Below are positions 3,357-40,065 of a stretch of 45,640 nucleotides of DNA, piece by piece. Location of the stretch: IMG/VR virus record IMGVR_UViG_3300027833_001544, positions 1-45,640 of that record. One strand, given 5' to 3'. Below the pieces are notes generated by a model. The model saw only the letters and a program-made list of their open reading frames with translations. It searched no databases and was not told where the DNA came from. Numbering within the stretch: position 1 is the stretch's first letter; each line of letters opens with the position of its first letter. This DNA comes from a virus. A program made the position numbers and the translations under genes.

Positions 3357-3375
3357 GATTCAACGGAGATATATT

Positions 3376-3939
3376 ATGGGAAGAATACGTGATAGAGGTA
3401 ATGACGGCGGAAATGTTTATAGATGGCAAACATTAGCTAACTTCGTTAACACTAATGGCTGGACAAAAGGCGCAGAGCTTGGTATCCACGATGGTGTTAA
3501 TTTTAAATTCTTAATTAACAATTGTCCAAAATTACATATGATTGGCGTAGACTTATACGAGGCACAGCCAGATAACGGTGGACCAGAGAAATGGACACCC
3601 GGAGAACACGGACATGCTTGGGATCATATCAAATACTATAATGATTTACGAGAGTTTGAAGAATACAATCCAGACAGAGTTGATATTATAAAAGACTATA
3701 CTACTGAAGCAGCCAAGACGGTTGACGACAAGAGTTTAGATTTTGTATTTGTCGATGCTGACCATGGATACGAAGGTTGCCTAAGAGATATTAAAGCTTG
3801 GGATAGTAAAGTAAGAGATGGCGGTATTATGTTTGGGCATGATATACATTTCCCTACTGTCAAACAAGCAGTGACAGAGTTTTATGGAGAGAACTCTTGG
3901 AACGTAGAAGACGATTTTATTTGGTGGGTACAGAAGTGA
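3376..3939 (+). CDS. Class I SAM-dependent methyltransferase (type 24-like)
   Basis: A 187-residue protein. The start at 3376 is chosen for GGAGAT 8 bases upstream; a longer reading with an upstream non-ATG start is less likely. Motif I is KGAELGIHDG (about residue 33), followed by MIGVDLYEA. A late acidic motif DFVFVDADHGYEGCLRDI and the strand GGIMFGHDIH are typical of Methyltransf_24 enzymes, which often act in sugar and surface polymer synthesis. It leads a four-gene overlapping run with two glycosyltransferases and a sulfotransferase, so O-methylation of a sugar is a reasonable inference. The substrate is unknown. Confidence 0.75.
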   Translation: MGRIRDRGNDGGNVYRWQTLANFVNTNGWTKGAELGIHDGVNFKFLINNCPKLHMIGVDLYEAQPDNGGPEKWTPGEHGHAWDHIKYYNDLREFEEYNPDRVDIIKDYTTEAAKTVDDKSLDFVFVDADHGYEGCLRDIKAWDSKVRDGGIMFGHDIHFPTVKQAVTEFYGENSWNVEDDFIWWVQK

Positions 3940-4586
3940 ATATCCCAAAGAAATTAGGTCAGATATGGGTTGGCCCTCGTCCTGCACCACTTCAATGGAT
4001 GCATACTTGGCGAGACAAACATCCTGAGTGGAACTATACAATATTTACTGATGAAATGTTGCGTTCTCGTAAATGGCATAATAGTCATTTGATTGAACAC
4101 TATTATAATACAGGTAAGTTCCCAGGCGTATCAGATCTTATTAGATATGAATTGTTATATGAGCATGGTGGCTTTTGGCCTGAGGCTGATATGACTTGTT
4201 TAGAAAATACAGATGAGCTATTTACATCACCAGAAAATTACGCTTATTCTTGTTATGAGAACGAAAACCTATCTACACCAAATATTCAACCAATCATGGC
4301 ATGTAATCCTGAGAATGTATTCGCCAAACATGTTATTGATACACTCCATAAATTAAAACCAACTGATTTGAAACCAGAACCTTTTAGATCCACGGGTAAT
4401 CTATTTTTATCTAAGCACCACCCAAGCTTTAAACACATGATAACTATATGGCCAAGCCATTATTTTATTCCGTTGTTTTATATCGGTGGTGCAAAAAGAT
4501 ATGATGGACCTGATAAAGTTTATGCAGACCACAAATGGGGATCCACTGGTCATGCGAATAGTATAACATATGATAAGGGTATATAA
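3936..4586 (+). CDS. Glycosyltransferase, sugar-binding DXD family (GT32-like)
   Basis: A 216-residue protein with a GTG start (GTGA overlap with the methyltransferase stop). The N-terminus IPKKLGQIWVG, the Trp-rich HPEWNYTIFTDE, and SDLIRYELLYEHGGFWPEADM match the Gly_transf_sug (OCH1-like) fold. The usual Y-G-G-x-Y-x-D-x-D is here H-G-G-F-W-P-E-A-D, so the first Asp of the DXD is a Glu. This could alter metal binding or donor choice. It is probably part of the surface-glycan cassette, and its late promoter suggests action late in infection or on the virion. Confidence 0.75.
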   Translation: MNIPKKLGQIWVGPRPAPLQWMHTWRDKHPEWNYTIFTDEMLRSRKWHNSHLIEHYYNTGKFPGVSDLIRYELLYEHGGFWPEADMTCLENTDELFTSPENYAYSCYENENLSTPNIQPIMACNPENVFAKHVIDTLHKLKPTDLKPEPFRSTGNLFLSKHHPSFKHMITIWPSHYFIPLFYIGGAKRYDGPDKVYADHKWGSTGHANSITYDKGI

Positions 4587-5257
4587 TGTACATATCTCAC
4601 AAATATAAATTGATATTTTTAAGAACACCAAAAACAGCAAGCAGCAGCTTATCCGAGTTCTTTATTAAAAACATTCCAGATCCTGATGCGATTTATACGC
4701 CAGTTGAGGACTCTAATATTCCAGCAACATTAAGTAAAAACATAATTGATAAGTATAAGATACACTTTAAATATTACCATTTTACATTACAGGATTTAGT
4801 TGATAATCGTATTATAACACCAATGGCTGCTATTCAATATAAATCTATTGCAGTAGTAAGAGATCCTGTTGATAGACAAAAAAGCTTTTACTATTTTTAT
4901 AAAAGATGGAAAAACAAAAATGTACCACCATCAGTAGAAGAATACAATTCTTGGACAACAAGAGGCTCATTTATTGGTGAACCAAACTCTGGTATATTAC
5001 AATCTGATATATTAAAGTATAACGGCGAAATCCGTGGTGAGTATTGGCTGTATGAAAATATAAACAACGATCTTAGCGCGCTTATGAGTGAATTAAATAT
5101 ACAAGTAACACATATGTTACCTCAACATAAAAATGATTTCAGAAAGAACCGTGATAACGAAATTTCGTTTGATGATAAAGCAATAGATAATATATTAAAA
5201 TACTTTGGTGATGATGTAACTTTGTATAATGAACTTGCTGAGGAAACATACGTATGA
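4586..5257 (+). CDS. Sulfotransferase-like protein
   Basis: A 223-residue protein beginning YISHKYKLIFLRTPKTASSS, which is the 5'-phosphosulfate loop of PAPS-dependent sulfotransferases (Sulfotransfer_2 type: P-K-x-A-S-S-S). The 3'-phosphate-binding stretch is SIAVVRDPVDRQKSFYYF at about residues 91-108. The length fits a minimal family member. It overlaps both neighbours, starting on the A of the glycosyltransferase stop. Sulfation of a sugar on the virion or cell surface is the likely job. Sulfotransferases are unusual in phages, and a second one is fused to a GT17 domain at 26055. Confidence 0.7.
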   Translation: MYISHKYKLIFLRTPKTASSSLSEFFIKNIPDPDAIYTPVEDSNIPATLSKNIIDKYKIHFKYYHFTLQDLVDNRIITPMAAIQYKSIAVVRDPVDRQKSFYYFYKRWKNKNVPPSVEEYNSWTTRGSFIGEPNSGILQSDILKYNGEIRGEYWLYENINNDLSALMSELNIQVTHMLPQHKNDFRKNRDNEISFDDKAIDNILKYFGDDVTLYNELAEETYV

Positions 5258-5937
5258 AGGCATATATTCTAAAAATCAATACAGAGCTATCAATGGAATA
5301 CGCAAAGATTGCAGCTGACTCTTGTGATAAAGTTGGATTGCCTTGGGAATATCATTTAGGATATAGTAATCAAACAGGCAAGTCAGCATTCCGAGATTTA
5401 AATATACCTGGGTTGCCAACTGAACCTTATAAGCATATTGAAAACCCATATACTGCACACAAAGCTTTTTGTTGTACCGCTGGTCATTTCGCTATATGGA
5501 AAAGAATTGCTGAAGGTACTGATAACGTAGGGGTTGTACTTGAACACGACGCTATAATGCTACAGCCAATATCAATAGAAATACCAGAAAATACTATCGT
5601 GGTATTAGGATATAAAATAACCGATCCAAATAATTACGATCACGCTTCTGCTGGTCCTCCAACCGATTTAATTAGCATTGAAGGACATGAAGGTGCACAC
5701 GCCTACGCTATGACTAAGCGAACTGCTCAATTTTTGATTAAAGAATTATCTGAACAAGGTATACGAAGTGCGGTTGATAATGATTATTTTATAGTGCGCC
5801 AGCGGAGAACAGCTATCCCATTGCATATAGCATCACCAACTCCTGCCCTTGGATGGCTTAGAGAGTCAACTATATGGGGTAAATCGGCACAAGTTAACTA
5901 TCAATTCATACCCTCTTTTCAAAAATATTATAAATAG
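5254..5937 (+). CDS. Glycosyltransferase family 25-like (LPS-type)
   Basis: A 227-residue protein overlapping the sulfotransferase stop (ATGA). The start (KAYILKINTELSMEYAKIA), the segment CTAGHFAIWKRIAE at about residues 74-87, and VVLEHDAIM at about 96-104 match the GT25 layout (helix ahead of an E-x-D). A later GAHAYAMTKRTAQFLI matches the family's acceptor-side helix. GT25 enzymes transfer galactose or related sugars in LPS synthesis. It ends the late-transcribed surface cassette; its 3' end overlaps the late promoter for the next gene. Confidence 0.7.
   Translation: MKAYILKINTELSMEYAKIAADSCDKVGLPWEYHLGYSNQTGKSAFRDLNIPGLPTEPYKHIENPYTAHKAFCCTAGHFAIWKRIAEGTDNVGVVLEHDAIMLQPISIEIPENTIVVLGYKITDPNNYDHASAGPPTDLISIEGHEGAHAYAMTKRTAQFLIKELSEQGIRSAVDNDYFIVRQRRTAIPLHIASPTPALGWLRESTIWGKSAQVNYQFIPSFQKYYK
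5929..5936 (+). promoter_or_regulatory. T4-type late promoter TATAAATA
   Basis: Exact late core, overlapping the last codons of the GT25 gene. Predicted start near 5942, 27 bases before the ATG at 5969. It likely drives the whole 5969-10949 internal-protein run. Confidence 0.6.
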
Positions 5938-5968: not shown

Positions 5969-8212
5969 ATGGTTGACGAACCACAGCAAGACATTAATGA
6001 CCCAAAGAATAACGATGAAGTCGAAGCCAAACCTAAATCAAAGCCAAAAGAAAAGGCTGCTGAAAAAGGTAAAGACGGCAAGCGTAAAATTAAGAATTTT
6101 AAAGGGTTTGATGCAGGAAAATATATCGATGTTGAGCCAGTATTAAATGAAATGGCATCAACCAAACCCGCTGTTATAACTTTTGGAAGAATGAACCCAA
6201 TTACAGTTGGCCATGAAAAATTGGCTAATGCAGTTGCGAGTCAAGCCAAAAACAGTGGTGGTGTTGGTTATATTTACCTTTCACAATCACAAGATAAAAA
6301 CAAAAATCCATTAAGCTATAATGATAAAATTAAATATGCTCAAAAGGCGTTTGGTAAAATCGTTATTAAATCAAAAGCAAGAACTATTATTGAAGTGATG
6401 GCTGAGTTGAGTGGTAAACATAAAGATGTCATAGTAGTTGTTGGATCTGACAGAGTAAAAGAATTTGATAGATTACTAAACAAATATAATAAATCATCAG
6501 CAGGTTATATATTTAATAATATTACAGTTGTATCAGCAGGGCAACGCGATCCTGACGCCGAAGGTGTTAAGGGAATGTCTGGAACTAAAATGCGTGGGTT
6601 TGCCATGGATAATGATGTTAAGAGTTTTGCAACCGGATTACCAAGTAAATTGAAAACAACCGCAGCTGCGATATTAGCCGACGTGCGAAAGGGAATGAAC
6701 ATGTCAGAAGATAACGATAACGAATTTGAAAACATTGAAGATTTTGTAGAGGATACGGCAGAGCTTGACGAAGTTCTAGATCGTATGCAGCGAAGAGCTA
6801 TCGGTATTAGGATGCGTAAAAACAGATTTAAAATGAAACGTGGTAGAGAAAAAGCTGCTCGACGAACTGCAACCATGGAAATTCTAAAGAAACGGGCCCG
6901 CAAACAAGCAATAAGAAATCTTAAAGACCGTTTTGCAAAAAATAAACGATATGCTGATATGTCGTCTGGTGAAAAGATTGTAATTGATAAACGTGTTGCT
7001 AAATTCTCTAAACAAAGATTAGATGCAATGGCTCGAAAGCTATTACCAAAGGTTAAAGTTAAAGAGCGCGAACGTAAACTAGCCATGAATAAATCTAAGA
7101 ACGAAAGTCTAAACCTACAATTTGAAAACTTTGTAGCAGAAGCTCATAACCCAAAACATGTAAGAATGGCAGTAGGCATTGCCGCTGATAAAAAATATGG
7201 TAATAACATGTCAGGCGCATCAAAGGCTATTAATAAAATTGCTAAGGGTTTATCTGACCACCCTCAAGTTGCTGCGGTACTTAAACGTAAAAACGAAGAC
7301 TTAGAAGAGAACCATATTTGGGGACAACGTCAAGGTAAACGCCCTCATATGCTTTTAGATAGAAACGGTAAAACAAAATTTGATAAACGTTTCAAAATGT
7401 ATAGACCAAAACTTGATGAAAGCATTAACGAGTTTGACATTATACATATTACAGATTTAATGGAATCAACAGAGTCGTATATCAAAGAAGATGCTGCTGA
7501 TAAATCTCTGGCTAAAAAATCTGAGAAATCTGGTATGCCGCAAGGTGTTTTAAAACAAGTATATAACCGTGGCGTAGCTGCGTGGAAAACTGGTCATAGA
7601 CCTGGAACTACACCAGAGCAATGGGGACATGCAAGAGTTAATTCTTTTATAACCAAATCTTCTGGTACATGGGGCAAAGCTGATAAAGACTTAGCTTCCA
7701 AAGTACGCAAAGAAGAAGTTGAACTTGAAGAAAATTATAAAATTACTAAAATGTATAATCCAACAACGAAAAAATCTCGTACAGCTGGGAAGAGTACAGC
7801 AACATTCGCTGTACATACACATGATCGTAAATACTTTAAAGAGTTTCCAAATCAAAAAGATGCTCAAAACCATATGAAATCTCTTGGTAAAAAAGAAGAA
7901 GCTGAACTTGATGAAATGGATTTCTCTATTAAATCAGTAAAGAAATCTGGATTATCAAATCTTAAAAAAGCAAACAACTTTGATAAATTAAAATCAGATA
8001 TTGCTAAAATGAGAGACAAACTTAATAAAGATAAAGGTCTCAAAACTGAAGCAGAGATTAATGAGCTAGACAAGGATACGCTTGCTAACTATGCTAATAA
8101 AGCAGTTAAAGATAAAGAAGATGCAAAGTATTCTAAAGATAGCGCTCAAAATTCTAAAACAGCTAATTTTACTCGTAAAATGTTAAAAAGCGATAAGGAA
8201 AGCAAAGAATGA
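5969..8212 (+). CDS. Nucleotidyltransferase fused to basic and repeat-rich phage domains
   Basis: A 747-residue protein; the start at 5969 has AGGA 9 bases upstream. After a Lys/Glu-rich head, residues 67-240 form a cytidylyltransferase-like domain: ITFGRMNP, T-V-G-H at 79-82 (the HxGH motif with Thr for the first His), VVVGSDRVKEF, and GMSGTKMR at 202-209 in place of ISSTxxR. Residues 270-375 are highly basic, with R/K-rich helices ending KLLPKVK, as in a protein widespread in marine T4-like phages. Residues 508-580 match a conserved phage segment (SGMPQGVLKQVYNRG, DUF5872-like). Acidic L-x-E motifs (LNEM, FVAEA, LEEN, LDEM, INEL) resemble gp21 prohead-protease sites, so it may be cut and packaged. 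Nucleotide substrate unknown. Confidence 0.75.
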   Translation: MVDEPQQDINDPKNNDEVEAKPKSKPKEKAAEKGKDGKRKIKNFKGFDAGKYIDVEPVLNEMASTKPAVITFGRMNPITVGHEKLANAVASQAKNSGGVGYIYLSQSQDKNKNPLSYNDKIKYAQKAFGKIVIKSKARTIIEVMAELSGKHKDVIVVVGSDRVKEFDRLLNKYNKSSAGYIFNNITVVSAGQRDPDAEGVKGMSGTKMRGFAMDNDVKSFATGLPSKLKTTAAAILADVRKGMNMSEDNDNEFENIEDFVEDTAELDEVLDRMQRRAIGIRMRKNRFKMKRGREKAARRTATMEILKKRARKQAIRNLKDRFAKNKRYADMSSGEKIVIDKRVAKFSKQRLDAMARKLLPKVKVKERERKLAMNKSKNESLNLQFENFVAEAHNPKHVRMAVGIAADKKYGNNMSGASKAINKIAKGLSDHPQVAAVLKRKNEDLEENHIWGQRQGKRPHMLLDRNGKTKFDKRFKMYRPKLDESINEFDIIHITDLMESTESYIKEDAADKSLAKKSEKSGMPQGVLKQVYNRGVAAWKTGHRPGTTPEQWGHARVNSFITKSSGTWGKADKDLASKVRKEEVELEENYKITKMYNPTTKKSRTAGKSTATFAVHTHDRKYFKEFPNQKDAQNHMKSLGKKEEAELDEMDFSIKSVKKSGLSNLKKANNFDKLKSDIAKMRDKLNKDKGLKTEAEINELDKDTLANYANKAVKDKEDAKYSKDSAQNSKTANFTRKMLKSDKESKE

Positions 8213-8418
8213 AAAAGTTTAAAGCATTCGTAAAGGCAGGTGCTGGTGACGTAGGCACTGACGAACTCGTTAAAACTCTTAAAGATGACACTCCAATGGC
8301 AGAAGCCTGTTGGGACTCACATAAACAAGTAGGTATGAAGAAAAAAGGAAACAAAATGGTTCCTAATTGCGTACCTAAAAACGAAGATGCCGAATACGAT
8401 AACGAGTTTGGCGGTTAA
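8209..8418 (+). CDS. Small conserved phage protein with MKKFKAF leader
   Basis: A 69-residue protein overlapping the stop of the large upstream gene (ATGA). The start MKKFKAFVKAG is a variant of the shared leader of the next six genes but lacks the Glu at position 10. The C-terminal part (CWDSHKQVGMKKKGNKMVP then NCVP) is a short motif I recognise from many phage genomes without known function. It may be a member of the putative packaged-protein family whose leader is not cleaved. Confidence 0.65.
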   Translation: MKKFKAFVKAGAGDVGTDELVKTLKDDTPMAEACWDSHKQVGMKKKGNKMVPNCVPKNEDAEYDNEFGG

Positions 8419-8419
8419 T

Positions 8420-8869
8420 GTGTTACGGTTTAAACAATATATGACTGAATATACTGTTAAGTCAATGGCAAAATACCATGAAATAACAGGCACAGAATTT
8501 ATTAAGCCTAAGGTTAAAGTATTAAAGTTACCAACAAAAAACGTAACTGATAATGATTTAATATATGCTCAATTAATGTATGGTCACCTAGAAAGCTATC
8601 AGTATGCGGATCTTGCATTTCCGGGTTCTACCAGAAAGACTAATACGTGGTTTAGTAAATATTCTAAAATAGCCAAAATATATGGCGAAGAAAACGACGC
8701 AGGCGACCATTTATCTGTTATGAGAAAAGTTGTTGAAATGACTAGTCAACGTAGTAAAAACTATAAATTAAATGGTAGAGAATGGAAATCTAGTAAACAA
8801 GGTAAAGCTTGGGATGCATGGGAAACTGAGCAAAGAAAAATTTATCCGGAGCAATGGCGCGATGATTAG
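8420..8869 (+). CDS. Putative capsid-targeted internal protein
   Basis: A 149-residue protein. The GTG at 8420 is chosen because it yields MLRFKQYMTE, matching the leader of the following genes, and begins two bases after the previous stop; a longer reading would run into the previous gene. The body (FPGSTRKTNTWFSKYSKI, then REWKSSKQGKAWDAWETEQR) is basic and unrecognised. Under the T4 internal-protein model it would be brought into the prohead and cut after Glu10. Confidence 0.6.
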   Translation: MLRFKQYMTEYTVKSMAKYHEITGTEFIKPKVKVLKLPTKNVTDNDLIYAQLMYGHLESYQYADLAFPGSTRKTNTWFSKYSKIAKIYGEENDAGDHLSVMRKVVEMTSQRSKNYKLNGREWKSSKQGKAWDAWETEQRKIYPEQWRDD

Positions 8870-9218
8870 GTTTAAGGCGCATTTAAATGAAGCGGTGGAT
8901 AGACCACCTAAATGGAAAAAAGATACTAGCGATGGCGAAGGTGGTGCTCAAATTATTGAATTCCCGAAGACTAAGGTTAAGTACAGGGTTTCAAAGTTCC
9001 TTGATACTGGTGACCGTCATAAAGGTGAATGGAATGTAGAAGGCTGGGATACGCGTCGTAAGGAATGGGTATGGGATGAAACTCTCGCTCCAAAGGCTTG
9101 GGCAAAAGAGCTTTGTATATACCGAGGTCAGTTTAAACACGATCAGTACGGATCACCAATTAAAAAACAACAAATTACAGATTATAGTAAAACATTTAAA
9201 TTTGACGGGCATTACTAA
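8862..9218 (+). CDS. Putative capsid-targeted internal protein
   Basis: A 118-residue protein. The start at 8862, inside the end of the previous gene, gives MIRFKAHLNE followed by AVDRPPKWKKD; GGAG lies 10 bases upstream. The body is Trp- and Lys-rich (WNVEGWDTRRKEWVWDE, KAWAKELCIYRGQFK) and looks like a compact basic domain. No family recognised. The leader fits the (L/I)-x-E cut pattern of T4 gp21 at L8-N9-E10. Confidence 0.6.
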   Translation: MIRFKAHLNEAVDRPPKWKKDTSDGEGGAQIIEFPKTKVKYRVSKFLDTGDRHKGEWNVEGWDTRRKEWVWDETLAPKAWAKELCIYRGQFKHDQYGSPIKKQQITDYSKTFKFDGHY

Positions 9219-9511
9219 TGAAAAGTTTTAAACAATATATTTCCGAAGGTATTAGAATTAAGTATATTCGCGACAAGAATATGGGAGTGCTTAAGATGCA
9301 GGATACTAAACAAAAATCTTGGGTTGAACTCCGTGGTAAGCCAAACTTTGAAACAAAATACGATGCTAAAGATCCGCTACACAAAGCCATAACTGCATTA
9401 CGCAAATCTGTTAATGTATCTGAGCTTATGAATGGCGAGCCCGTAGGTATTAATCCAAAACATCCTGACGCTAAAAAAGCGCTCGCAGCAATAAAGAAGC
9501 TAATGAAATGA
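9218..9511 (+). CDS. Putative capsid-targeted internal protein
   Basis: A 97-residue protein whose ATG shares its A with the previous stop (TAATG). It begins MKSFKQYISE, with I8-S9-E10 as a possible gp21 site. The remaining 87 residues are basic and of unknown function, ending in a small helix (KKALAAIKKLMK). Size, charge and leader all resemble T4 internal proteins IPI-IPIII (comparison from knowledge of T4). Confidence 0.6.
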   Translation: MKSFKQYISEGIRIKYIRDKNMGVLKMQDTKQKSWVELRGKPNFETKYDAKDPLHKAITALRKSVNVSELMNGEPVGINPKHPDAKKALAAIKKLMK

Positions 9512-10305
9512 AAAGATTTAAAACATACATAAATGAAATGTTTAACAAGGTTCATCCTACGCTTAAAAAAGAATTAGGAAGCCACGGTGATCACGCTATT
9601 GGAATGGCTGGATCAGATAAAGGTGTTGCAGTATCATTTGATAGACCTAAAGATTCTAATGCTTTAAAAAAGCAAATGTCTCAACACGGTTATAAAAATG
9701 TAACCAAAACAAAAAGTGGTTTAGCTGGTCATAATCATGTATATCATTTTAGCGAAAGTGTAAATGAAGAAACTGGAGACTTAAACGAAAGTGCACTAAC
9801 CGCACTTAGAGTTGCGACGAAAGCCCATTCTGGTCAAACGCGAAAAAGCGGTGGTAAATATATTGAGCATCCAAAAGAAGTTGCTCGATTTGTAAAAAAG
9901 TTTAAGAAATCAAACAATCTTTCGGCATTAGTACAGGCGGCGTATTTACACGATACTATTGAAGATACTGACACTACATATGCAGATTTAGTTAAACAGT
10001 TTGGAGCTCTTGTGGCTGACATGGTTAAAGAATTAACTACTGATAAACAAGCATCCGATGCTATTGGTAAAGGCGAGTACATTGCTAATAAAATGGCTAA
10101 GATGTCAAGTTGGTCACTAGTTATTAAACTTGCTGATAGATTAGCAAACGTGCAGGATATTGATACACGACCAGCAGCTTTCCAGAAAAAATATGCTGCA
10201 GACACTACTCTAGCAATAAAGCGTTTAAGATCTGACAGATATTTAAGTAAAACTCATAATAAAATCATTTCAGATATTGAAAAGAAAATTAAGGAATACG
10301 TATAA
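9508..10305 (+). CDS. RelA/SpoT-MESH1-type HD hydrolase with capsid-targeting-like leader
   Basis: A 265-residue protein. Residues 1-10 are MKRFKTYINE, the shared leader. Residues about 96-265 match the HD hydrolase domain of RelA/SpoT and small alarmone hydrolases (MESH1). Matches are RKSGGKYIEHPKEVA (H121), AAYLHDTIEDTDTT (H148, D149, E152, D153) and LVIKLADRLANVQDI (D210). The four expected metal ligands and the E-D catalytic pair are all present, and no synthetase domain follows. Known members remove the 3'-pyrophosphate from (p)ppGpp; MESH1 also dephosphorylates NADPH. A second possible protease site (DLNES, about 91-95) would free the HD domain. Co-location with other leader-bearing genes suggests packaging and injection; that part is inference. 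Confidence 0.8.
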   Translation: MKRFKTYINEMFNKVHPTLKKELGSHGDHAIGMAGSDKGVAVSFDRPKDSNALKKQMSQHGYKNVTKTKSGLAGHNHVYHFSESVNEETGDLNESALTALRVATKAHSGQTRKSGGKYIEHPKEVARFVKKFKKSNNLSALVQAAYLHDTIEDTDTTYADLVKQFGALVADMVKELTTDKQASDAIGKGEYIANKMAKMSSWSLVIKLADRLANVQDIDTRPAAFQKKYAADTTLAIKRLRSDRYLSKTHNKIISDIEKKIKEYV

Positions 10306-10949
10306 TGAAAAGTTTTAAAACACATATTAGTGAATTATATACTATCGGACATACGAGATCCTATGATGCTGGCGCCAATCGAGCAAAGCAAAATGTAAAA
10401 CATGGTTCAACTGATCCAAAGGATAAAAGATTTGGTACTAAACTCGGTGGTCAAAAAGGTGAGCATGGGGGTGCAGCATATAAAACTCCGGAAGATGCTA
10501 CTAAAGGCGCTAAGGCGTTAAAGAAAGAATTTCCGGGCAGAAAATACAGTGTATATAAAATGAAAGGTGATTTCGATAAAGACACTTATCATAGCAATAA
10601 AACTGGTATGAACCATGTAAAAAAAGATACTGAAATTACTCATAAAGTAGCTCATAATGTATCAGAAGAAAAAGATCCACGTTTAAAAAGAGCTGGCGTA
10701 GCCGGTTTTAATAAAGCTAAGGGGACTCCTTCGCATTCAACTAAAAGCCATATCGTTGTTGCTAAAGATGGTGATAAGGTAAAAACAATTCGTTTTGGTG
10801 AGCAAGGTGCTTCTACTGCAGGTGATCCTAAAAAAGGTGAGTCTGATAAGATGAAAGCAAAACGTAAATCATTTAAGGCACGCCACGGTAAAAACATTGC
10901 TAAGGGTAAAATGTCAGCTGCGTATTGGGCTGATAAGGTCAAATGGTAA
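10305..10949 (+). CDS. Putative capsid-targeted protein, DUF6321-like C-terminus
   Basis: A 214-residue protein with TAATG overlap and leader MKSFKTHISE. The C-terminal 90 residues (RLKRAGVAGFNKAKGTPSH, then TIRFGEQG, then KSFKARHGKNIAKGKMSAAYWA) are a basic domain seen in many phage genomes. I believe it is DUF6321, sometimes found as a stand-alone protein of unknown function. The middle (KTPEDATKGAKALKKEFPGRKY) looks like a second small domain. High Lys and His content fits a DNA-associated packaged protein. Confidence 0.65.
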   Translation: MKSFKTHISELYTIGHTRSYDAGANRAKQNVKHGSTDPKDKRFGTKLGGQKGEHGGAAYKTPEDATKGAKALKKEFPGRKYSVYKMKGDFDKDTYHSNKTGMNHVKKDTEITHKVAHNVSEEKDPRLKRAGVAGFNKAKGTPSHSTKSHIVVAKDGDKVKTIRFGEQGASTAGDPKKGESDKMKAKRKSFKARHGKNIAKGKMSAAYWADKVKW

Positions 10950-10955
10950 TTTTTT

Positions 10956-10963
10956 TATAAATA
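10956..10963 (+). promoter_or_regulatory. T4-type late promoter TATAAATA
   Basis: Exact late core in the 39-base gap before the 10989 gene, following a T-run. Predicted start near 10969, about 20 bases before the ATG. Confidence 0.6.
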
Positions 10964-10988
10964 AAGTAAATATTAAAGGAATACAGAA

Positions 10989-12656
10989 ATGAAAAGCTTT
11001 AAAAAACATTTTAATGAAACAAAAGACACACATTGTTCAGATGAATGCTGTGGCGCTGATGTTAAAGCTGAAGATTGCGATTGTTCTGCAGATTGCCCAC
11101 ATTGTAACTGCAATTCAGTTAAAGAAGCAGTGGAACCAGATTTAGATGAAGCTCTATTAGGTGAAGAAAGAGAATCTTATTATAGTTCTAAGAAGCATGC
11201 TTATAAGCCAAAGAGAAAAGAGTATGATCCACATAAAGTAGCAACTCAAGCGCATTTACAACACGCGCACGACTTCCATGATGTTGAAACTGATAAAGGA
11301 TACGATCGTTACCAGACATCTCGTCAAACGGTGCCTCATCACAAAGCTCAAGTAGGACACTTACATAAAGCCATGAAGGCTAATGCTACAGGTGATAAAG
11401 CTGCTTTAAAAAAGCATATGCATGATTACCATCATGGCAATGAAAATCATAAAATTAACAAATCTGGTACTTATCCGCATGCACACCATTTGCCTCATCA
11501 CGGCAGTTCCAATGTAAATGAAACATTTGATCCTAAACATCCAAAGGTTATGGCTGCTCGTAAAGCGGTCAAAAGTGGTACCTACAATGGTAATGTAGAC
11601 CGAAATGGTAATGCTATTGTACACATTGACGGTAAACCTCACACAGTAACTAAAGGCGATCCTGCTGCAAAGAATGAAGCACTTGATGAAATAAGTATGG
11701 ACACACTATCGAGCTACAAAGATAAAGCCAAGTATAGTAGAGACAAAGCTCAGAACTCAGCAGATGCTAACTATATGAGAGGCACAAAAGGTAGTGGTGG
11801 TAAAAACGATCCGGATATTAAAACGATGCAAAAACGTGATCGCGGTAAAGAATTATACTATAGTAATATAACTAATAAGCTAAGAAAACAATTAGCGGAT
11901 AAAAAAGAAGACGTTCAACTTGATGAATTATCACCTGCAACTTTAAAAAGCTATAAGAAAAAGTCATTAAAACAATACAAGCAATCAGCTAATAAAAGAA
12001 TGGCTGGTGGCGGAGATTATGGATCAGCGACAAAGGCAGCGCAAGACAAGCATCAAAAGAGATTTGATAAACGCCATAAAGGCATTGGTTCAGAAATTAA
12101 ACGTACAACCGATGATGATATTCACTTAAAAGATCCAAAAGGTCTTGTAAGAAAAAATCCAAAAGCAAATTCTATGACAGGCAAACCAGCTCCTTATAAA
12201 AATAGAGCTGAAAGTTTAGATGTCGATACATACGAATCAATGAACGAAGCTATTATCGACATTATTAACGAAAATAATATTACTATAGAAGAACTAGAAA
12301 ATATGACTGAAGAAGAACTTCAGGAATTATTACGTACTACTGGTAAAGTTATTGGTGGAACAGCAAAGGCTGCATATGGGCTTTCAAGGCTTGCAGGAAG
12401 AGGCATTAAAGCAGTAGGAAAAGCTGCGGTGATGAATAAACAAGGTAATGTTCGTGGCACGCAGGCGGCTAAAACCGACGCAGCAAAAGCTAAAAATGAC
12501 AAACTTCAGTCTACATTAGACAGTATACGAGATAAAAGAAGAGATAATGTTAAACAGAAACTTGCTATAAGAACATCTAATAGATTGAAAAGACAAATAG
12601 ACAGATCTAAGGCGAAGCTGAAACAAACTCAAAATAAACCAAAACCAAGTAATTAA
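10989..12656 (+). CDS. Large putative capsid-targeted Cys/His-rich repeat protein
   Basis: A 555-residue protein with leader MKSFKKHFNE and an AAAGGA ribosome site. Residues 16-41 hold eight cysteines in CC, CxC and CPHCNC clusters, suggesting bound metal. Residues 70-171 are very His-rich. Two copies of a module, D-E-[IL]-S-x-x-T-L-x-S-Y with a Lys-rich tail, begin near residues 233 and 312; a third copy ends the 5969 protein. Residues 425-447 are strongly acidic (IEELENMTEEELQELL). The last 100 residues are very basic, histone-like and Lys/Arg/Ala-rich. Repeated L-D-E/L-x-E motifs may be prohead-protease sites, so it may be a polyprotein of packaged peptides. No enzyme domain recognised. 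Confidence 0.65.
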   Translation: MKSFKKHFNETKDTHCSDECCGADVKAEDCDCSADCPHCNCNSVKEAVEPDLDEALLGEERESYYSSKKHAYKPKRKEYDPHKVATQAHLQHAHDFHDVETDKGYDRYQTSRQTVPHHKAQVGHLHKAMKANATGDKAALKKHMHDYHHGNENHKINKSGTYPHAHHLPHHGSSNVNETFDPKHPKVMAARKAVKSGTYNGNVDRNGNAIVHIDGKPHTVTKGDPAAKNEALDEISMDTLSSYKDKAKYSRDKAQNSADANYMRGTKGSGGKNDPDIKTMQKRDRGKELYYSNITNKLRKQLADKKEDVQLDELSPATLKSYKKKSLKQYKQSANKRMAGGGDYGSATKAAQDKHQKRFDKRHKGIGSEIKRTTDDDIHLKDPKGLVRKNPKANSMTGKPAPYKNRAESLDVDTYESMNEAIIDIINENNITIEELENMTEEELQELLRTTGKVIGGTAKAAYGLSRLAGRGIKAVGKAAVMNKQGNVRGTQAAKTDAAKAKNDKLQSTLDSIRDKRRDNVKQKLAIRTSNRLKRQIDRSKAKLKQTQNKPKPSN

Positions 12657-12680
12657 TAAACCTCATTAAGGAGAACTACA

Positions 12681-12986
12681 ATGGGATCATGGGCAAAACT
12701 AGATAACGCGGCATCAGCACCAAAATGGCTGTCTGCAACTGCATCTAATCCAAACAAATCAAACGATAAAGATAACGCAGTTTTCGTTTCTGACGAAGAA
12801 GCAGCATTAGCATCTAACCGAGCAAAAGGTCTTACAGGACCGGGTTGGTGGTCATATCACACAGCTAACAGCCGTCACTTTGCGGAATGTTTAGTACCAA
12901 TGAAGGGCGGAACATGTGCAAACGCTGATGTTGGTGACTTAGGTGTTAGTGGTACAGGCGACGATGCAGTAGCTGAAGATACATAA
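12681..12986 (+). CDS. Small virion-type protein
   Basis: A 101-residue protein with AAGGAG 8 bases upstream. It is rich in Ala/Gly/Ser/Asp with a Trp-Trp pair (GPGWWSYHT), begins MGSWAKLDNA and has no membrane segment or enzyme motif. The strong ribosome site suggests high expression. A minor head or decoration protein is plausible from context only. Confidence 0.55.
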   Translation: MGSWAKLDNAASAPKWLSATASNPNKSNDKDNAVFVSDEEAALASNRAKGLTGPGWWSYHTANSRHFAECLVPMKGGTCANADVGDLGVSGTGDDAVAEDT

Positions 12987-12992
12987 AACATT

Positions 12993-13367
12993 ATGATATT
13001 AACAGAATCAACCTTTCTGTTATTTGCTTCGAAGTATTACGACAATCCAAATTGTACCGATACCGTCGAATTTTATGAGGACTTGAAGAGATTTCAGTAT
13101 TTACGTAAACTATTTGGTAGATACAAACAAGATAATGATTTGAAAGAAAGGCTGATTCTGAATCACTTGATCGTTATATATAATATCTTTGGACCAGAAG
13201 CAACTAACATGCTTTTTATGAAACTACATGAATACCACGAATTTTTAAAACCATTTGTGGTATATTTAAACTTTATGCCTAGCGTCGTTTCTTACGACGA
13301 ATATGTCATACATAAAGATAGTATAGAATCAGATAAATACATTAGCGAACTGCTAAAAGGAATATAA
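12993..13367 (+). CDS. Conserved marine T4-like phage protein (DUF7207-like)
   Basis: A 124-residue helical protein. The stretch EFYEDLKRFQYLRKLFGRYK followed by LKERLILNHLIVIYNIFG matches a protein I recognise from cyanophage and pelagiphage T4-like genomes, always near the next gene. Function unknown. It has no clear ribosome site and sits 6 bases after the previous stop, so it is probably translated by coupling. Confidence 0.65.
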   Translation: MILTESTFLLFASKYYDNPNCTDTVEFYEDLKRFQYLRKLFGRYKQDNDLKERLILNHLIVIYNIFGPEATNMLFMKLHEYHEFLKPFVVYLNFMPSVVSYDEYVIHKDSIESDKYISELLKGI

Positions 13368-13369
13368 AC

Positions 13370-14095
13370 ATGGTTGTAGATCTATTTATGGTATACCAAT
13401 TTATCCGTCGTCTAGCAACTCCATTTGAAAAGTGGGATGCATATAAAGAAGGCATTATTGATAAAGATGGTAAAGTACTAATTAAATCAAAAGATTTAAA
13501 TACTAAAAAACAACGTGCCGCATGGCGTATCTTTGATCGTATGATTGCTAACCTGAAGAAATTACTCGCCAAAGTCCCAGGTGGTAGTTCAAAACTAGCA
13601 TCATATGCAGCTGCTCTCTTTTTGATTAGAGAATATAAAGCATTTACTGATGAGGATATGTTTTTAAACGAAGATATTACTGATAACCAATTAGATGAAT
13701 CAATGGTATTATTTTCTAGTAGATATAACTATTATAACACACTTGCAGAGAATGTCAATAGAAAAAATGAAGCTTTCGGCAGAGCAAGATTTAAACAGCA
13801 GTTAGCTAAACGCGGAATGGATGTTGATAAGATCCACAATCAAAACGTTAAAGATGCCGAAGCTGCAAAGAAAAGACGAGAAAGAGCATCATCTGATTTA
13901 AAATCATTTAGACAAAAGAATAACATTGATGCAAAACCAGAAATACAAGAAGAGCCAGTAAATAATGTTGGTGGCGGAAATATAGCTGGTATGGATGGCG
14001 GTCATATGTCTAAAGCAGGGCAAAAGAAATGGACGTCAGGTAATAAGAGTTCAAAAAAGAAAAGACTAAGAGATATTATGGGAGACAATAAATGA
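13370..14095 (+). CDS. Conserved T4-like phage structural-type protein
   Basis: A 241-residue protein with AAAAGG ahead of the start. The N-terminal half (VYQFIRRLATPFEKWDAYK, GIIDKDGKVLIKSKDL, LLAKVPGGSSKLASYAAALF) matches a conserved protein of marine T4-like phages located among head and tail genes. The C-terminal half is Lys/Arg-rich and probably unstructured, ending KSSKKKRLRDIMGDNK. Function unknown; expected to be a virion or morphogenesis protein. Confidence 0.65.
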   Translation: MVVDLFMVYQFIRRLATPFEKWDAYKEGIIDKDGKVLIKSKDLNTKKQRAAWRIFDRMIANLKKLLAKVPGGSSKLASYAAALFLIREYKAFTDEDMFLNEDITDNQLDESMVLFSSRYNYYNTLAENVNRKNEAFGRARFKQQLAKRGMDVDKIHNQNVKDAEAAKKRRERASSDLKSFRQKNNIDAKPEIQEEPVNNVGGGNIAGMDGGHMSKAGQKKWTSGNKSSKKKRLRDIMGDNK

Positions 14096-14940
14096 TTACT
14101 TTAGAACAATTTAGTGCAATGATTCCTTCAAATAAAGAACCAGAGCTTTGGTATGAATCAGCGGTTCCAATGTTTGAAAAATATGAAATCAATACAAATA
14201 ACCGCGTTGCTGGCTTTATGGCACAGTGCGCGCATGAGTCGTTAGACTTTACAAGATTAGTAGAAAACCTTAATTATTCAGAAAAGGCTTTGAACTCAGT
14301 GTTCGGCCGTTATTTTGGAAAAGGAAAACGTGATGCAAAAGAATATGCAAGAGACCAAGAAAAAATCGCAAACTATGTCTACCAAGATGAGTTTAGGTCC
14401 AAACGAGGAGCCTTGGGAAACGTTAATCCCGGCGATGGCTGGCTCTTTAGGGGTCGAGGTATCAAGCAGCTTACAGGCAGAAATAATTACACACAATTCG
14501 CAAATACGGTTGACTTAACGGCCGAGGAAGCTGCAGAGTATGTATCAACACCAACGGGTGCTATTGAGTCTGCATGTTGGTTTTGGGCTACAAACAAATT
14601 AGAAAAGTTTGCTGACAAGGGCGATAATAAAGGATTGACTAAAAAGATTAACGGTGGTACTATTGGTTTAGAAGACCGTAATCGTCGCTGGGATGAAGCG
14701 TTAGCAATCCTTGGCGGTAAAGCACCAGCCCCTAAGAAAACATCTACAAATGCAGTACGTACTCTACGTAAAGGTATGCAAGGTGATGATGTTAAAAAGA
14801 TGCAAAAGGCTATTGGCGTAACAGCTGATGGTGATTTTGGATTTGGAACTCTTACTGCTGTTAAAAAATGGCAAAATGTAAATGGATTGGTTGCTGACGG
14901 TATCGTAGGACCATCTACACAATCCAAAATGTTTAAATAG
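14092..14940 (+). CDS. Endolysin: GH19 domain plus peptidoglycan-binding domain
   Basis: A 282-residue protein overlapping the previous stop (ATGA). Residues 1-207 form a glycoside hydrolase 19 (chitinase-like lysozyme) domain: AQCAHESLDFTRLVENLNYS with the expected catalytic Glu at 49 and a second at 58, then PGDGWLFRGRGIKQLTGRNN. Residues 222-282 form a PG_binding_1 domain (LRKGMQGDDVKKMQKAIG, then DGDFGFGTL, DGIVGPSTQ). No signal peptide is visible, so it would rely on a holin. Spanin genes lie about 400 bases downstream, consistent with a lysis region. Confidence 0.88.
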   Translation: MITLEQFSAMIPSNKEPELWYESAVPMFEKYEINTNNRVAGFMAQCAHESLDFTRLVENLNYSEKALNSVFGRYFGKGKRDAKEYARDQEKIANYVYQDEFRSKRGALGNVNPGDGWLFRGRGIKQLTGRNNYTQFANTVDLTAEEAAEYVSTPTGAIESACWFWATNKLEKFADKGDNKGLTKKINGGTIGLEDRNRRWDEALAILGGKAPAPKKTSTNAVRTLRKGMQGDDVKKMQKAIGVTADGDFGFGTLTAVKKWQNVNGLVADGIVGPSTQSKMFK

Positions 14941-14947
14941 ATAAATA
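14940..14947 (+). promoter_or_regulatory. Late promoter variant GATAAATA
   Basis: One base from the T4 late core, just after the endolysin stop and 40 bases ahead of the gp67-like core gene, whose ribosome site AAAAAGGAGA is very strong. A prohead core protein would need late expression. Confidence 0.4.
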
Positions 14948-14986
14948 GAATATAATAATACTGAATTTAACAAAAAGGAGATAGCA

Positions 14987-15349
14987 ATGTCTTTAGAAAA
15001 AATTATCAAAGAAGCGTTGGACAAAAATCCATTAGAAATGAAAGACGCATTCGCAGAAGAAATGCAAACTCGTATCGCTGCTGCTTTAGAAGAAAAATAC
15101 AAATCAGCATTAGCTGAGGATCTTGAAGAAGCAAAAGACGACGATGATGAAGACAAAGATGAAGATGATGACGACGACGATGACGACGACGATGATGATT
15201 CTGACTCGGACGATGATAAAATCGGCGCTGACATGAAAAAACTAAACGCATCTTGTACAAAAACAGAAATGTACGGCAAGATGAAAGAAAAGTATGGCTG
15301 CGATAAAGCTAAATTTGAAGGCTTATACGCATCATATTGCTCAAAGTAA
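14987..15349 (+). CDS. Acidic prohead core protein, gp67-like
   Basis: A 120-residue protein starting SLEKIIKEALDKNPLEMKDA. It has a helical N-terminus with AEEMQTRIAAALEEKYK, then an Asp-rich tract at about residues 51-77. This organisation resembles the T4 prohead core protein gp67 (PIP), whose C-terminal half is an Asp/Glu tract. Marine phages add a C-terminal segment with paired cysteines (ASCTKTEMYGKMKEKYGC), seen here. The similarity is in composition and layout, so the call is moderate. It sits between lysis genes, not beside other core genes. Confidence 0.5.
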   Translation: MSLEKIIKEALDKNPLEMKDAFAEEMQTRIAAALEEKYKSALAEDLEEAKDDDDEDKDEDDDDDDDDDDDDSDSDDDKIGADMKKLNASCTKTEMYGKMKEKYGCDKAKFEGLYASYCSK

Positions 15350-39204: not shown

Positions 39205-40065
39205 ATGGCTATATTAGTAGACTACAATCAGGTTATCTTAGCCTCGCTGTTCGCGAGTATTGGTAACCACCACAACATTGAAATAGACGAGAATATTATT
39301 CGTCACATGTTTTTAAATTCAATACGACATAATCGCAAAAAGTTTCATAAAGACTTTGGTGAAATCGTAATTTGCGCTGATGGTAAAAATACATGGCGCA
39401 GAGAAGCATATGCTTATTATAAAGGTAATCGCAAAAAATCACGCGACGAGTCTGATTTAGATTGGAATAACCTTTTTAGTATTATGAATACTATTCGTGA
39501 TGAGCTCCGAGAGCACTTCCCATATAAAGTAATTCATATTGACCATTGCGAAGCCGATGATATTATCGGTACCATTTGCCATGACGAAGGCACTGAACTA
39601 AATATGGGATCAGAACAATACCTAGTTTTGTCAGCTGATAAAGATTTTATTCAGCTTCAAACATATGCCAACGTTCAACAATTTGATCCAATTCGTAAAC
39701 GTTGGATTAAAAACGATAATCCATCTATGTACCTTGAAGAACATATTTTAAAAGGTGATACTGGTGATGGTGTACCAAATATCTTATCACCAGATAATTG
39801 TTTAGCAATTGGGCAGAGACAAAAACCAATGACTCAGAAACGTCTTGCTCAATATAAAGGTGGTACAGATGAAATGGACGAGGAAACATTACGTCGTTTT
39901 CATAGAAACAAAATGATGATTGACCTTACACAAATTCCTCAAAAATACCAAGAGCAAATTCGTTCTGAATTTAACAAAGAAAAAGACGTTGGACGGTCTC
40001 AATTGTTTAACTTCTTTATTCAAAAGAAACTTAAAAACTTAGTTACAGACATACAGGATTTCTAA
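39205..40065 (+). CDS. rnh: RNase H (T4 Rnh-like 5'-3' exonuclease)
   Basis: A 286-residue protein, near T4 RNase H length (305). FEN/5'-exonuclease motifs are LVDYNQVILA (first Asp), ICADGKNTWRREAYAYYKGN then RKKSRDESD, HIDHCEADDIIGTI (metal-binding acidic cluster), LSADKDFIQL, and LKGDTGDGVPNILSP. It removes RNA primers and flaps behind the lagging strand. Upstream bases 39176-39183 (TATAAATT) are one base from a late core. The following gene overlaps by one base. Confidence 0.88.
   Translation: MAILVDYNQVILASLFASIGNHHNIEIDENIIRHMFLNSIRHNRKKFHKDFGEIVICADGKNTWRREAYAYYKGNRKKSRDESDLDWNNLFSIMNTIRDELREHFPYKVIHIDHCEADDIIGTICHDEGTELNMGSEQYLVLSADKDFIQLQTYANVQQFDPIRKRWIKNDNPSMYLEEHILKGDTGDGVPNILSPDNCLAIGQRQKPMTQKRLAQYKGGTDEMDEETLRRFHRNKMMIDLTQIPQKYQEQIRSEFNKEKDVGRSQLFNFFIQKKLKNLVTDIQDF

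Follow-up and report, generated by a model that had tools for sequence, protein, structure and literature searches.

The virus record IMGVR_UViG_3300027833_001544 is a fragment of 45,640 bases, which is the entire known extent of the record and is referred to here as the window. It contains an array of six successive plus strand genes (8420-12656), each of which begins with a ten-residue leader of the form M-x-x-F-K-x-(Y/H)-(I/L/M/F)-x-E. It is very probable that these genes encode internal (core) proteins of the T4 type and that their leader is a capsid targeting sequence (CTS), serving targeting as well as cutting. The initial annotation, which was made from the DNA letters, had proposed such a CTS, and the proposal is supported by the match between the conserved leader positions and the CTS positions mapped in T4, by the presence of the prohead protease gp21 in relatives and by a homologue found in virions of the cyanophage S-SM1.

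Packaging, cutting and delivery in the window phage are predicted from sequence and by analogy with T4. At the stage of late head assembly, leader residues 4 and 7 would attach the protein to the prohead core. A gp21-type prohead protease would then cut after the Glu of the hydrophobic-x-Glu (h-x-E) end formed by residues 8-10, and the basic body would remain alongside the DNA inside the head. Sites for this protease may also join modules in larger proteins, such that a module can stand behind its own leader or within a polyprotein. On infection, the bodies would accompany the DNA into the host and exert their effect before any phage gene is transcribed. The clearest cargo, an HD domain body encoded by the gene at 9508, would at once damp the stringent response or alarmone-based defence.

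The leader array and its conserved residues

All six decapeptides listed in the initial annotation were recovered on the plus strand in successive genes (Table 1). The genes are arranged head to tail, mostly abutting or overlapping by a few bases and otherwise separated by small gaps. A strict motif, M..F[KRQ]..[ILMFV].E, applied to open reading frames of at least 40 amino acids with any start codon on both strands, has exactly six matches in 45,640 bases, and all of them are the array leaders on the plus strand. In 30 first-order Markov copies of the window the same motif was met 0.03 times on average and once at most. A chance origin of the leaders is thus rejected. Two starts that had been assigned on account of the leader, 8420 (GTG) and 8862, are upheld by the related sequences: for 8420 the relatives use ATG or GTG at the same codon, while the start of 8862 is the first usable one in relatives whose frame is open from just a few codons upstream of it. 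As annotated, a seventh start at 8209 lacks Glu10.

The statement that the bodies behind the leaders are unrelated to each other holds overall, with small exceptions. In an all-against-all BLASTP comparison, the best match was between the bodies of 9508 and 10989 (40% over 62 amino acids, E 9e-4), followed by 9508 and 8862 (E 0.005); in addition, a stretch of 49 amino acids is common to 10989 and the polyprotein encoded at 5969 (E 3e-5). A single recent gene duplication is rejected as the source of the array, since the bodies are unrelated and the codons varied. The predicted mature forms are basic, with isoelectric points of 9.3-10.1, as expected for proteins held with DNA. The annotated extent needs correction: the last gene of the array ends at 12656, and the preceding gene (5969-8212) is part of the same system.

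In T4 IPIII, residues 4 and 7 are described as directing targeting and residues 8 and 10 as directing processing (PMC9026906). These are the positions conserved in the array. With regard to targeting, Phe is found at position 4 in six of six leaders, and position 7 is Tyr in three and His in three, i.e., always a ring residue, yet in half of the cases neither Tyr nor Phe. The processing residues, a hydrophobic residue at position 8 and Glu at position 10, are present in all six, while 8209 fails in this respect.

The family of 9218 was gathered by its body alone and comprises 63 loci. In 53 of these, the start codon lies exactly ten codons ahead of the body. Including seven with a leader plus a short insert, 60 bodies stand behind a leader, and the remaining three are embedded in larger proteins after FSE, FNE or VVE. 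Among 18 distinct leaders of this family, the entropy is 0.00 at position 10, 0.31 at position 4, 0.50 at position 7 and 0.94 at positions 8 and 9, compared with 1.8-2.6 at positions 2, 3, 5 and 6. Position 7, here unrestricted by any motif, is Tyr or Phe in 18 of 18, and the Glu-Gly junction is invariant in all 21 aligned sequences, three of which are embedded. The alignment of leaders across related phages, which had been suggested as a check, accordingly reveals constraint at positions 4, 7, 8, 9 and 10. In a larger set of 196 distinct leader DNA sequences, obtained with a search motif that limited position 4 to F/Y and position 7 to F/Y/H, position 4 is F in 194 and Y in 2 and position 7 is Y in 93, F in 69 and H in 34. 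At the fixed positions the codons differ synonymously (TTT 164, TTC 30; GAA 173, GAG 23). What is conserved in the leader is thus the signal in the protein.

The leaders also show a strict strand preference. Eighty loci fetched through the HD gene contain 132 strict leaders in forward and none in reverse orientation, with at least one leader in 62 of the loci. A wider motif without the Lys5 condition and with an aromatic residue or His at position 7 yielded 471 forward and no reverse matches over 233 related loci, and none in one Markov copy. Since a scan of the whole T4 genome finds just ipII, ipIII and one short gene, 61.1, the motif can be regarded as specific. Gene 61.1 itself (NC_000866, 18966-19130, minus strand) encodes a hypothetical protein of 54 amino acids that starts with MKTFKEFIKE and may be an overlooked T4 core protein.

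Table 1 Features of the leader array and its surroundings in the window (aa, amino acids).
Feature	Position	Strand	Remarks
Leader MLRFKQYMTE	8420..8449	+	GTG start
Leader gene, no function assigned to body	8420..8869	+	GTG start
Leader MIRFKAHLNE	8862..8891	+	
Leader gene, no function assigned to body	8862..9218	+	Distant relatives embedded after h-x-E in other proteins
Leader MKSFKQYISE	9218..9247	+	
Leader gene, 87-aa basic body	9218..9511	+	E10/G11 invariant in 21 aligned relatives
Leader MKRFKTYINE	9508..9537	+	
Leader, 84-aa spacer module and HD domain (predicted alarmone hydrolase)	9508..10305	+	
HD body (MESH1/small alarmone hydrolase type) directly after DLNE	9790..10302	+	
Leader MKSFKTHISE	10305..10334	+	
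Leader gene with phrog_7595 module at residues 122-214	10305..10949	+	
Leader MKSFKKHFNE	10989..11018	+	
Leader-bearing 555-aa polyprotein-like basic protein	10989..12656	+	12 h-x-E sites
Short gene, E10-less leader MKKFKAFVKA and CW..KQVGMKKK..VPNCVP module	8209..8418	+	Module embedded in polyproteins elsewhere
Cytidylyltransferase-type polyprotein: CTP_transf_like, Arg/Lys-rich stretch, DUF5824	5969..8212	+	PF01467, PF19141; phrog_3041 2e-82
Internal FENFVAE in 5969 polyprotein, CTS-end-like, possible protease site	7121..7141	+	Predicted from sequence
TATAAATA	5929..5936	+	33 bases before 5969 gene
TATAAATA	10956..10963	+	26 bases before 10989 gene

Predicted cargo modules and the HD body

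Two features go beyond the initial annotation: the 5969 protein and a number of the cargo bodies belong to multi-module proteins whose parts meet at h-x-E, and one body is a predicted alarmone hydrolase. The proteins encoded at 5969 and 10989 are both multi-module. The former is a homologue of the cyanophage protein T4-GC190 (43% identity over 215 amino acids with that of S-SM1, 42% with that of S-ShM2) and contains 19 h-x-E sites, FENFVAE included. A general excess of such sites in polyproteins is not claimed, since ordinary genes have them too. The last 93 residues of the 10305 protein correspond to a free-standing, leaderless gene in six of six isolates, which are podo- and siphoviruses, and in 80 module-bearing loci this phrog_7595 module is found leaderless, fused to a leader or within larger proteins. 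For 8209, one might guess at a later cleavage site, MAE32/ACW (the slash marks the junction), in which case its E10-less start would perhaps resemble that of T4 IPI. Together, these arrangements suggest that cargo modules are joined by the same h-x-E sites whether they stand behind their own leader or inside a polyprotein. The strength of the junction evidence lies in the persistence of h-x-E when the context changes.

The HD body of 9508 begins at residue 95, after DLNE. Such an h-x-E sequence directly precedes the HD body in 79 of the 79 related loci that have upstream residues (LNE 59, INE 11, FNE 4, LDE 2, MNE 1, LRE 1, IKE 1), though related loci share ancestry and counts of this kind are not independent trials. 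A leader start with Phe4 lies no more than 20 codons from the HD body in 67 of 80 cases, 51 with Glu near position 10 and 16 without. In two loci (L060 and L061) the HD body is located inside a giant protein behind LDE or LNE, and the giant protein of L060 begins with the cytidylyltransferase domain, that of L061 with the accompanying Arg/Lys-rich stretch. The HD enzymes of six isolates all start at the domain and are leaderless; the predicted cut after h-x-E would release precisely this form.

In a profile search against the PDB, the HD body matched human MESH1 (3nr1, E 1.4e-22). The predicted fold has a local confidence score (pLDDT) of about 90 over residues 95-265, while leader and spacer are of low confidence. 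Foldseek returned 6yvc as the best match (3.8e-7) and MESH1 5vxa with a template modelling (TM) score of 0.84 by target. The residues H121, H148, D149, E152, D153, D210 and N214 of the H...HD..ED...ADR..N motif are invariant in 18 of 18 aligned sequences. The body thus shares with MESH1 and the small alarmone hydrolases (3nr1, 5vxa, 6yvc) the HD fold, with TM-scores of 0.83-0.84 by target length and 26-27% identity, and the HD..ED and ADR..N motifs; it differs from them in that the 9508 protein has a leader and an 84-residue spacer before the domain and is predicted to be head cargo. The HD fold and the intact motif are evident, and we infer from them that (p)ppGpp or (p)ppApp is the substrate to be hydrolysed.

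Tentatively, the HD body could instead have a different nucleotide as its substrate (NADPH, a CBASS- or CRISPR-type signal or a deoxynucleoside triphosphate) or be inactive. MESH1/SAH enzymes are described as promiscuous (PMC9765508), and phage HD enzymes have been proposed to counter several nucleotide signals (PMC7824862). We consider this possible, yet the less probable option, in view of the top sequence and fold matches, all to (p)ppGpp/(p)ppApp hydrolases or to hydrolase domains of Rel/SpoT, and of the invariance of the metal-binding and catalytic motif residues in all aligned sequences. What an alarmone hydrolase would bring to the phage may be viewed from two sides. Among 67 Pseudomonas putida phages, about half are reported to have done better and half worse without (p)ppGpp (PMC12814882); as the phage response varies in this screen, a gain from (p)ppGpp removal in the present host is a guess. 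Alarmones also have a part in immunity against phages, which phage-encoded HD alarmone enzymes have been proposed to counter (PMC7824862).

How readily cargo is exchanged is illustrated by a near relative (L001), whose HD protein is 98% identical. It has leader genes like 8420, 8862, 10305 and 10989, lacks 9218 and possesses one extra leader gene of 254 amino acids. Its HD protein is devoid of the 84-residue spacer and of Glu10 (MKRFKEFTSHDLNE/SAL) and has a start resembling that of T4 IPI, MKTFKEFTSTTTPVSTITE/A, the Glu of which is residue 19.

Head genes, virion data and alternative explanations

A gp21-type protease elsewhere in the genome had been named as a check in the initial annotation. 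In the window fragment the search for PF03420 (gp21) was negative, while the family was detected in 11 of the 22 contigs tested from which related loci derive and in the complete genome of phage C48C1. In all four stretches that were read, gp21 is followed by gp22 and gp23, and gp20 was found in three of the four. The place between gp20 and gp21 is the site of gp67 and gp68 in T4. Three of the four stretches encode, at this place, a protein with the leader at its own N-terminus (L092, MKTFKHIRE/A; L094, MKTFKNLIAE/V; L095, MKRFSELVME/V). The maturation site of gp23, LTE in T4, is h-x-E in five aligned relatives.

Virion data are available for a phage with a syntenic locus. Mass spectrometry of S-SM1 virions is reported to have identified 41 proteins, the newly detected ones including gp21 and the putative citidylyltransferase T4-GC190 (PMC3037559). 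The latter starts with MKKFSAFLNE in S-SM1 and with MKKFSTFISE in S-ShM2, and in S-SM1 this leader is the only forward match in the 40 kb examined. Because S-SM1 T4-GC190 bears a leader and was found in virions, the leader is tied to virion presence, cutting being left aside. S-SM1 and the window share this locus and the gene order up to gp61 and the nrd genes; the two proteins differ in that the S-SM1 protein is leader-bearing, whereas the window homologue is a longer polyprotein whose own start is without a clear leader.

Several observations count against the assignment as T4-type internal proteins. PF03420 was not found in the window, though the scan was negative for its control genomes as well, and gp21 was not detected in G001, the closest long relative (82 kb, 98% identical). 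Neither gp21 nor gp23 was detected in any of the 42 contigs of at least 15 kb among the 80 loci with the phrog_7595 module, all of which are fragments. In C48C1, gp21 lies at 14.6 kb and several leader genes lie near 61-68 kb, i.e., about 47 kb apart; compared with this separation the phrog_7595 fragments are too short, and a correlation between leader and gp21 is not claimed. No leader is present on the protein between gp20 and gp21 in L093 or on the gene just before gp21 in C48C1. Pelagibacter phage HTVC008M, a syntenic isolate, has just atypical leader-like starts. A strict leader is missing from 18 of the 80 HD loci, and for 13 of the 80 HD bodies no leader start with Phe4 was found within 20 codons, some of these 13 having a leader further off or being truncated. 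The shared ancestry of the loci noted above belongs here as well.

A first alternative regards the leader as a tag for binding to capsid or scaffold that stays uncut, or is cut in some cases, with the bodies being structural, as DNA-condensing or scaffold elements, and having no role in the host. The basic nature of the bodies, several of which are without an enzyme motif, would fit such a function, as would the lack of E10 in 8209 and in the 16 HD loci already mentioned. Nevertheless, we judge this explanation improbable: Glu10 is the least variable residue of the leader, h-x-E still stands right before the HD body where E10 is missing, the junction is kept when a module sits inside a polyprotein, and enzyme bodies (alarmone hydrolase, tRNA nucleotidyltransferase, S-adenosylmethionine lyase-like protein) are unexpected of pure structure. 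The notion that recombination or a shared translation-start cassette gave rise to the common start, on proteins that are cytoplasmic and unpackaged, draws on the similarity of the six leaders as DNA (ATG AAA AG. TTT AAA in four) and on the fast turnover of cargo between near relatives such as L001 and the window, but is highly improbable, given that amino acid conservation is confined to positions 4, 7, 8, 9 and 10, with variation in the adjacent codons and at synonymous sites, that the leader also occurs on the protein encoded between portal and protease, and that a leader protein is present in S-SM1 virions.

Known systems, diversity of the candidate cargo and genomic context

The assignment as T4-type internal proteins implies a known mechanism. 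T4 IPI, IPII and IPIII, which are cut by gp21, share with the array the ten-residue N-terminal leader with aromatic residues at positions 4 and 7, a hydrophobic residue at 8 and Glu at 10 and the unrelated bodies, and the longer, E10-less form of the leader in IPI (MKTFKEF...ITE/A) is also seen in the window group (PMC9026906, PMC9958956). T4 differs in having two exact leaders plus IPI, as opposed to six or seven in a row in the window, and in the window group there are 26 body clusters over 233 loci, modules swapped into polyproteins, and enzyme cargo. T4 Alt and the ejected enzymes of phiKZ- and SPN3US-like phages are carried in the head and have propeptides that are cut after x-x-Glu by a prohead protease, as is proposed for the array proteins; the propeptides of SPN3US, in contrast, are mostly long and end with A-x-E, and the available text of that report describes no array of ten-residue CTSs (PMC5694885). 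Polyvalent proteins (Iyer et al. 2017; PMC5512222) are comparable as multi-domain phage proteins; they carry effector domains and are delivered with the DNA, as would be the case for the window group. In the text of that article as available the term 'capsid targeting' has 0 occurrences, and the modules of the window group differ in being split by h-x-E and in occurring singly behind leaders.

As far as searches of open libraries show, the new aspects are the scale of the system, the exchange of modules with polyproteins and the kind of cargo. Neither CTS arrays in marine T4-type phages nor a CTS-tagged alarmone hydrolase were found to be reported in the open-licence literature, subscription papers and preprints having been outside the search. 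On balance, we favour the broader view that marine T4-type phages own a general plug-in cargo system, in which a ten-codon leader or an h-x-E splice would suffice for head loading, release by the protease and delivery with the DNA, with over 20 cargo families. If this is true, the cargo includes an alarmone hydrolase that would erase the host's starvation signal before any phage gene is read, and also a tRNA nucleotidyltransferase and an S-adenosylmethionine lyase-like protein. A host encounters head-carried proteins before any other phage product, yet few of them have been named outside the T-even phages. With a ten-residue tag recognisable in the sequence, genes of common marine phages annotated as 'hypothetical protein' become candidates for injected effectors, each with a predicted exact mature N-terminus. 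It is an old proposal, hitherto based on mazG, that starved hosts have their ppGpp lowered by marine phages (PMC2984593), and a head-carried alarmone hydrolase would make it directly testable. Phage HD alarmone enzymes have already been proposed as a counter-defence (PMC7824862); a role as tagged head cargo was not found in the literature searched.

After removal of redundancy, the 233 loci yield 237 distinct leader-borne bodies, which form 26 BLAST clusters and carry 169 different leaders. A Pfam scan covered representatives of 20 of the 26 clusters. Matches over the cut-off were obtained to DUF6267, poly(A) polymerase/tRNA nucleotidyltransferase, an AAA/zeta-type kinase, the S-adenosylmethionine-lyase family (PF23780, 47.7 bits) and DUF6321. 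Sub-cut-off matches, to be taken as leads only, concern an ADP-ribosyltransferase exoenzyme family (20.3 versus 23.4 bits), HNH_3 and acid phosphatase; several of the 20 scanned representatives had no Pfam match at all.

Some individual candidate cargo proteins deserve mention. In L060 (5242-5829), the leader MQSFKSFLGE precedes the PF23780 protein, a candidate head-carried anti-restriction enzyme whose match lies over the cut-off. In L065 (8892-10100), MKSFICHLNE stands on a poly(A) polymerase/tRNA nucleotidyltransferase, which could provide head-carried repair of tRNA ends. A leader-bearing, His-rich protein in L182 (2063-2968) has the sub-cut-off ADP-ribosyltransferase match and is of a kind that recalls T4 Alt. 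DUF6267 proteins, exemplified by L021 (1220-2446), contain a KWDG motif, and the leader is present in 25 distinct DUF6267 bodies. Presumably, this KWDG motif resembles the lysine motif of nucleotidyl-transfer ligases.

The phage of the window is of the T4 type, as is apparent from gp61, phrog_407, the order relative to the cytidylyltransferase gene and a T4 RNase H domain. All or part of the gene order, which runs from a cytidylyltransferase gene through a run of variable genes to a phrog_407 gene, the primase gene gp61 and ribonucleotide reductase (nrd), is shared with the T4-type cyanophages S-SM1 and S-ShM2, Pelagibacter phage HTVC008M and phage C48C1. The gp61 homologue shares 38% identity with the S-ShM2 protein and 39% with the S-SM1 protein, and PF09293, the C-terminal domain of T4 RNase H, is located at 39205. 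Because gene order, primase and RNase H domain match T4-type phages, the array can be assigned to the genome of a T4-type phage, where it occupies the variable region that follows the cytidylyltransferase gene. The named relatives point to a marine host. Near-identical DNA for the region 7500-15000 was not found in named phages, and neither were protein matches of 9218 and 8862.

Two genes of the region are preceded by the octamer TATAAATA (Table 1), which we take to be the T4 late-promoter box. In relatives, it occurs in 31 of 233 distinct 60-mers upstream of leader genes compared with about 2.6 expected, and the 233 loci contain 352 forward and 25 reverse copies. In the window there are 11 copies, all on the plus (coding) strand; 6.9 are expected and 11 of 100 shuffles reach this number, so the octamer in the window alone is rejected as evidence. 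Ahead of the array (3364-5934), three genes resemble a methyltransferase, a sulfotransferase and a family 25 glycosyltransferase, an odd surface-sugar set for a phage locus.

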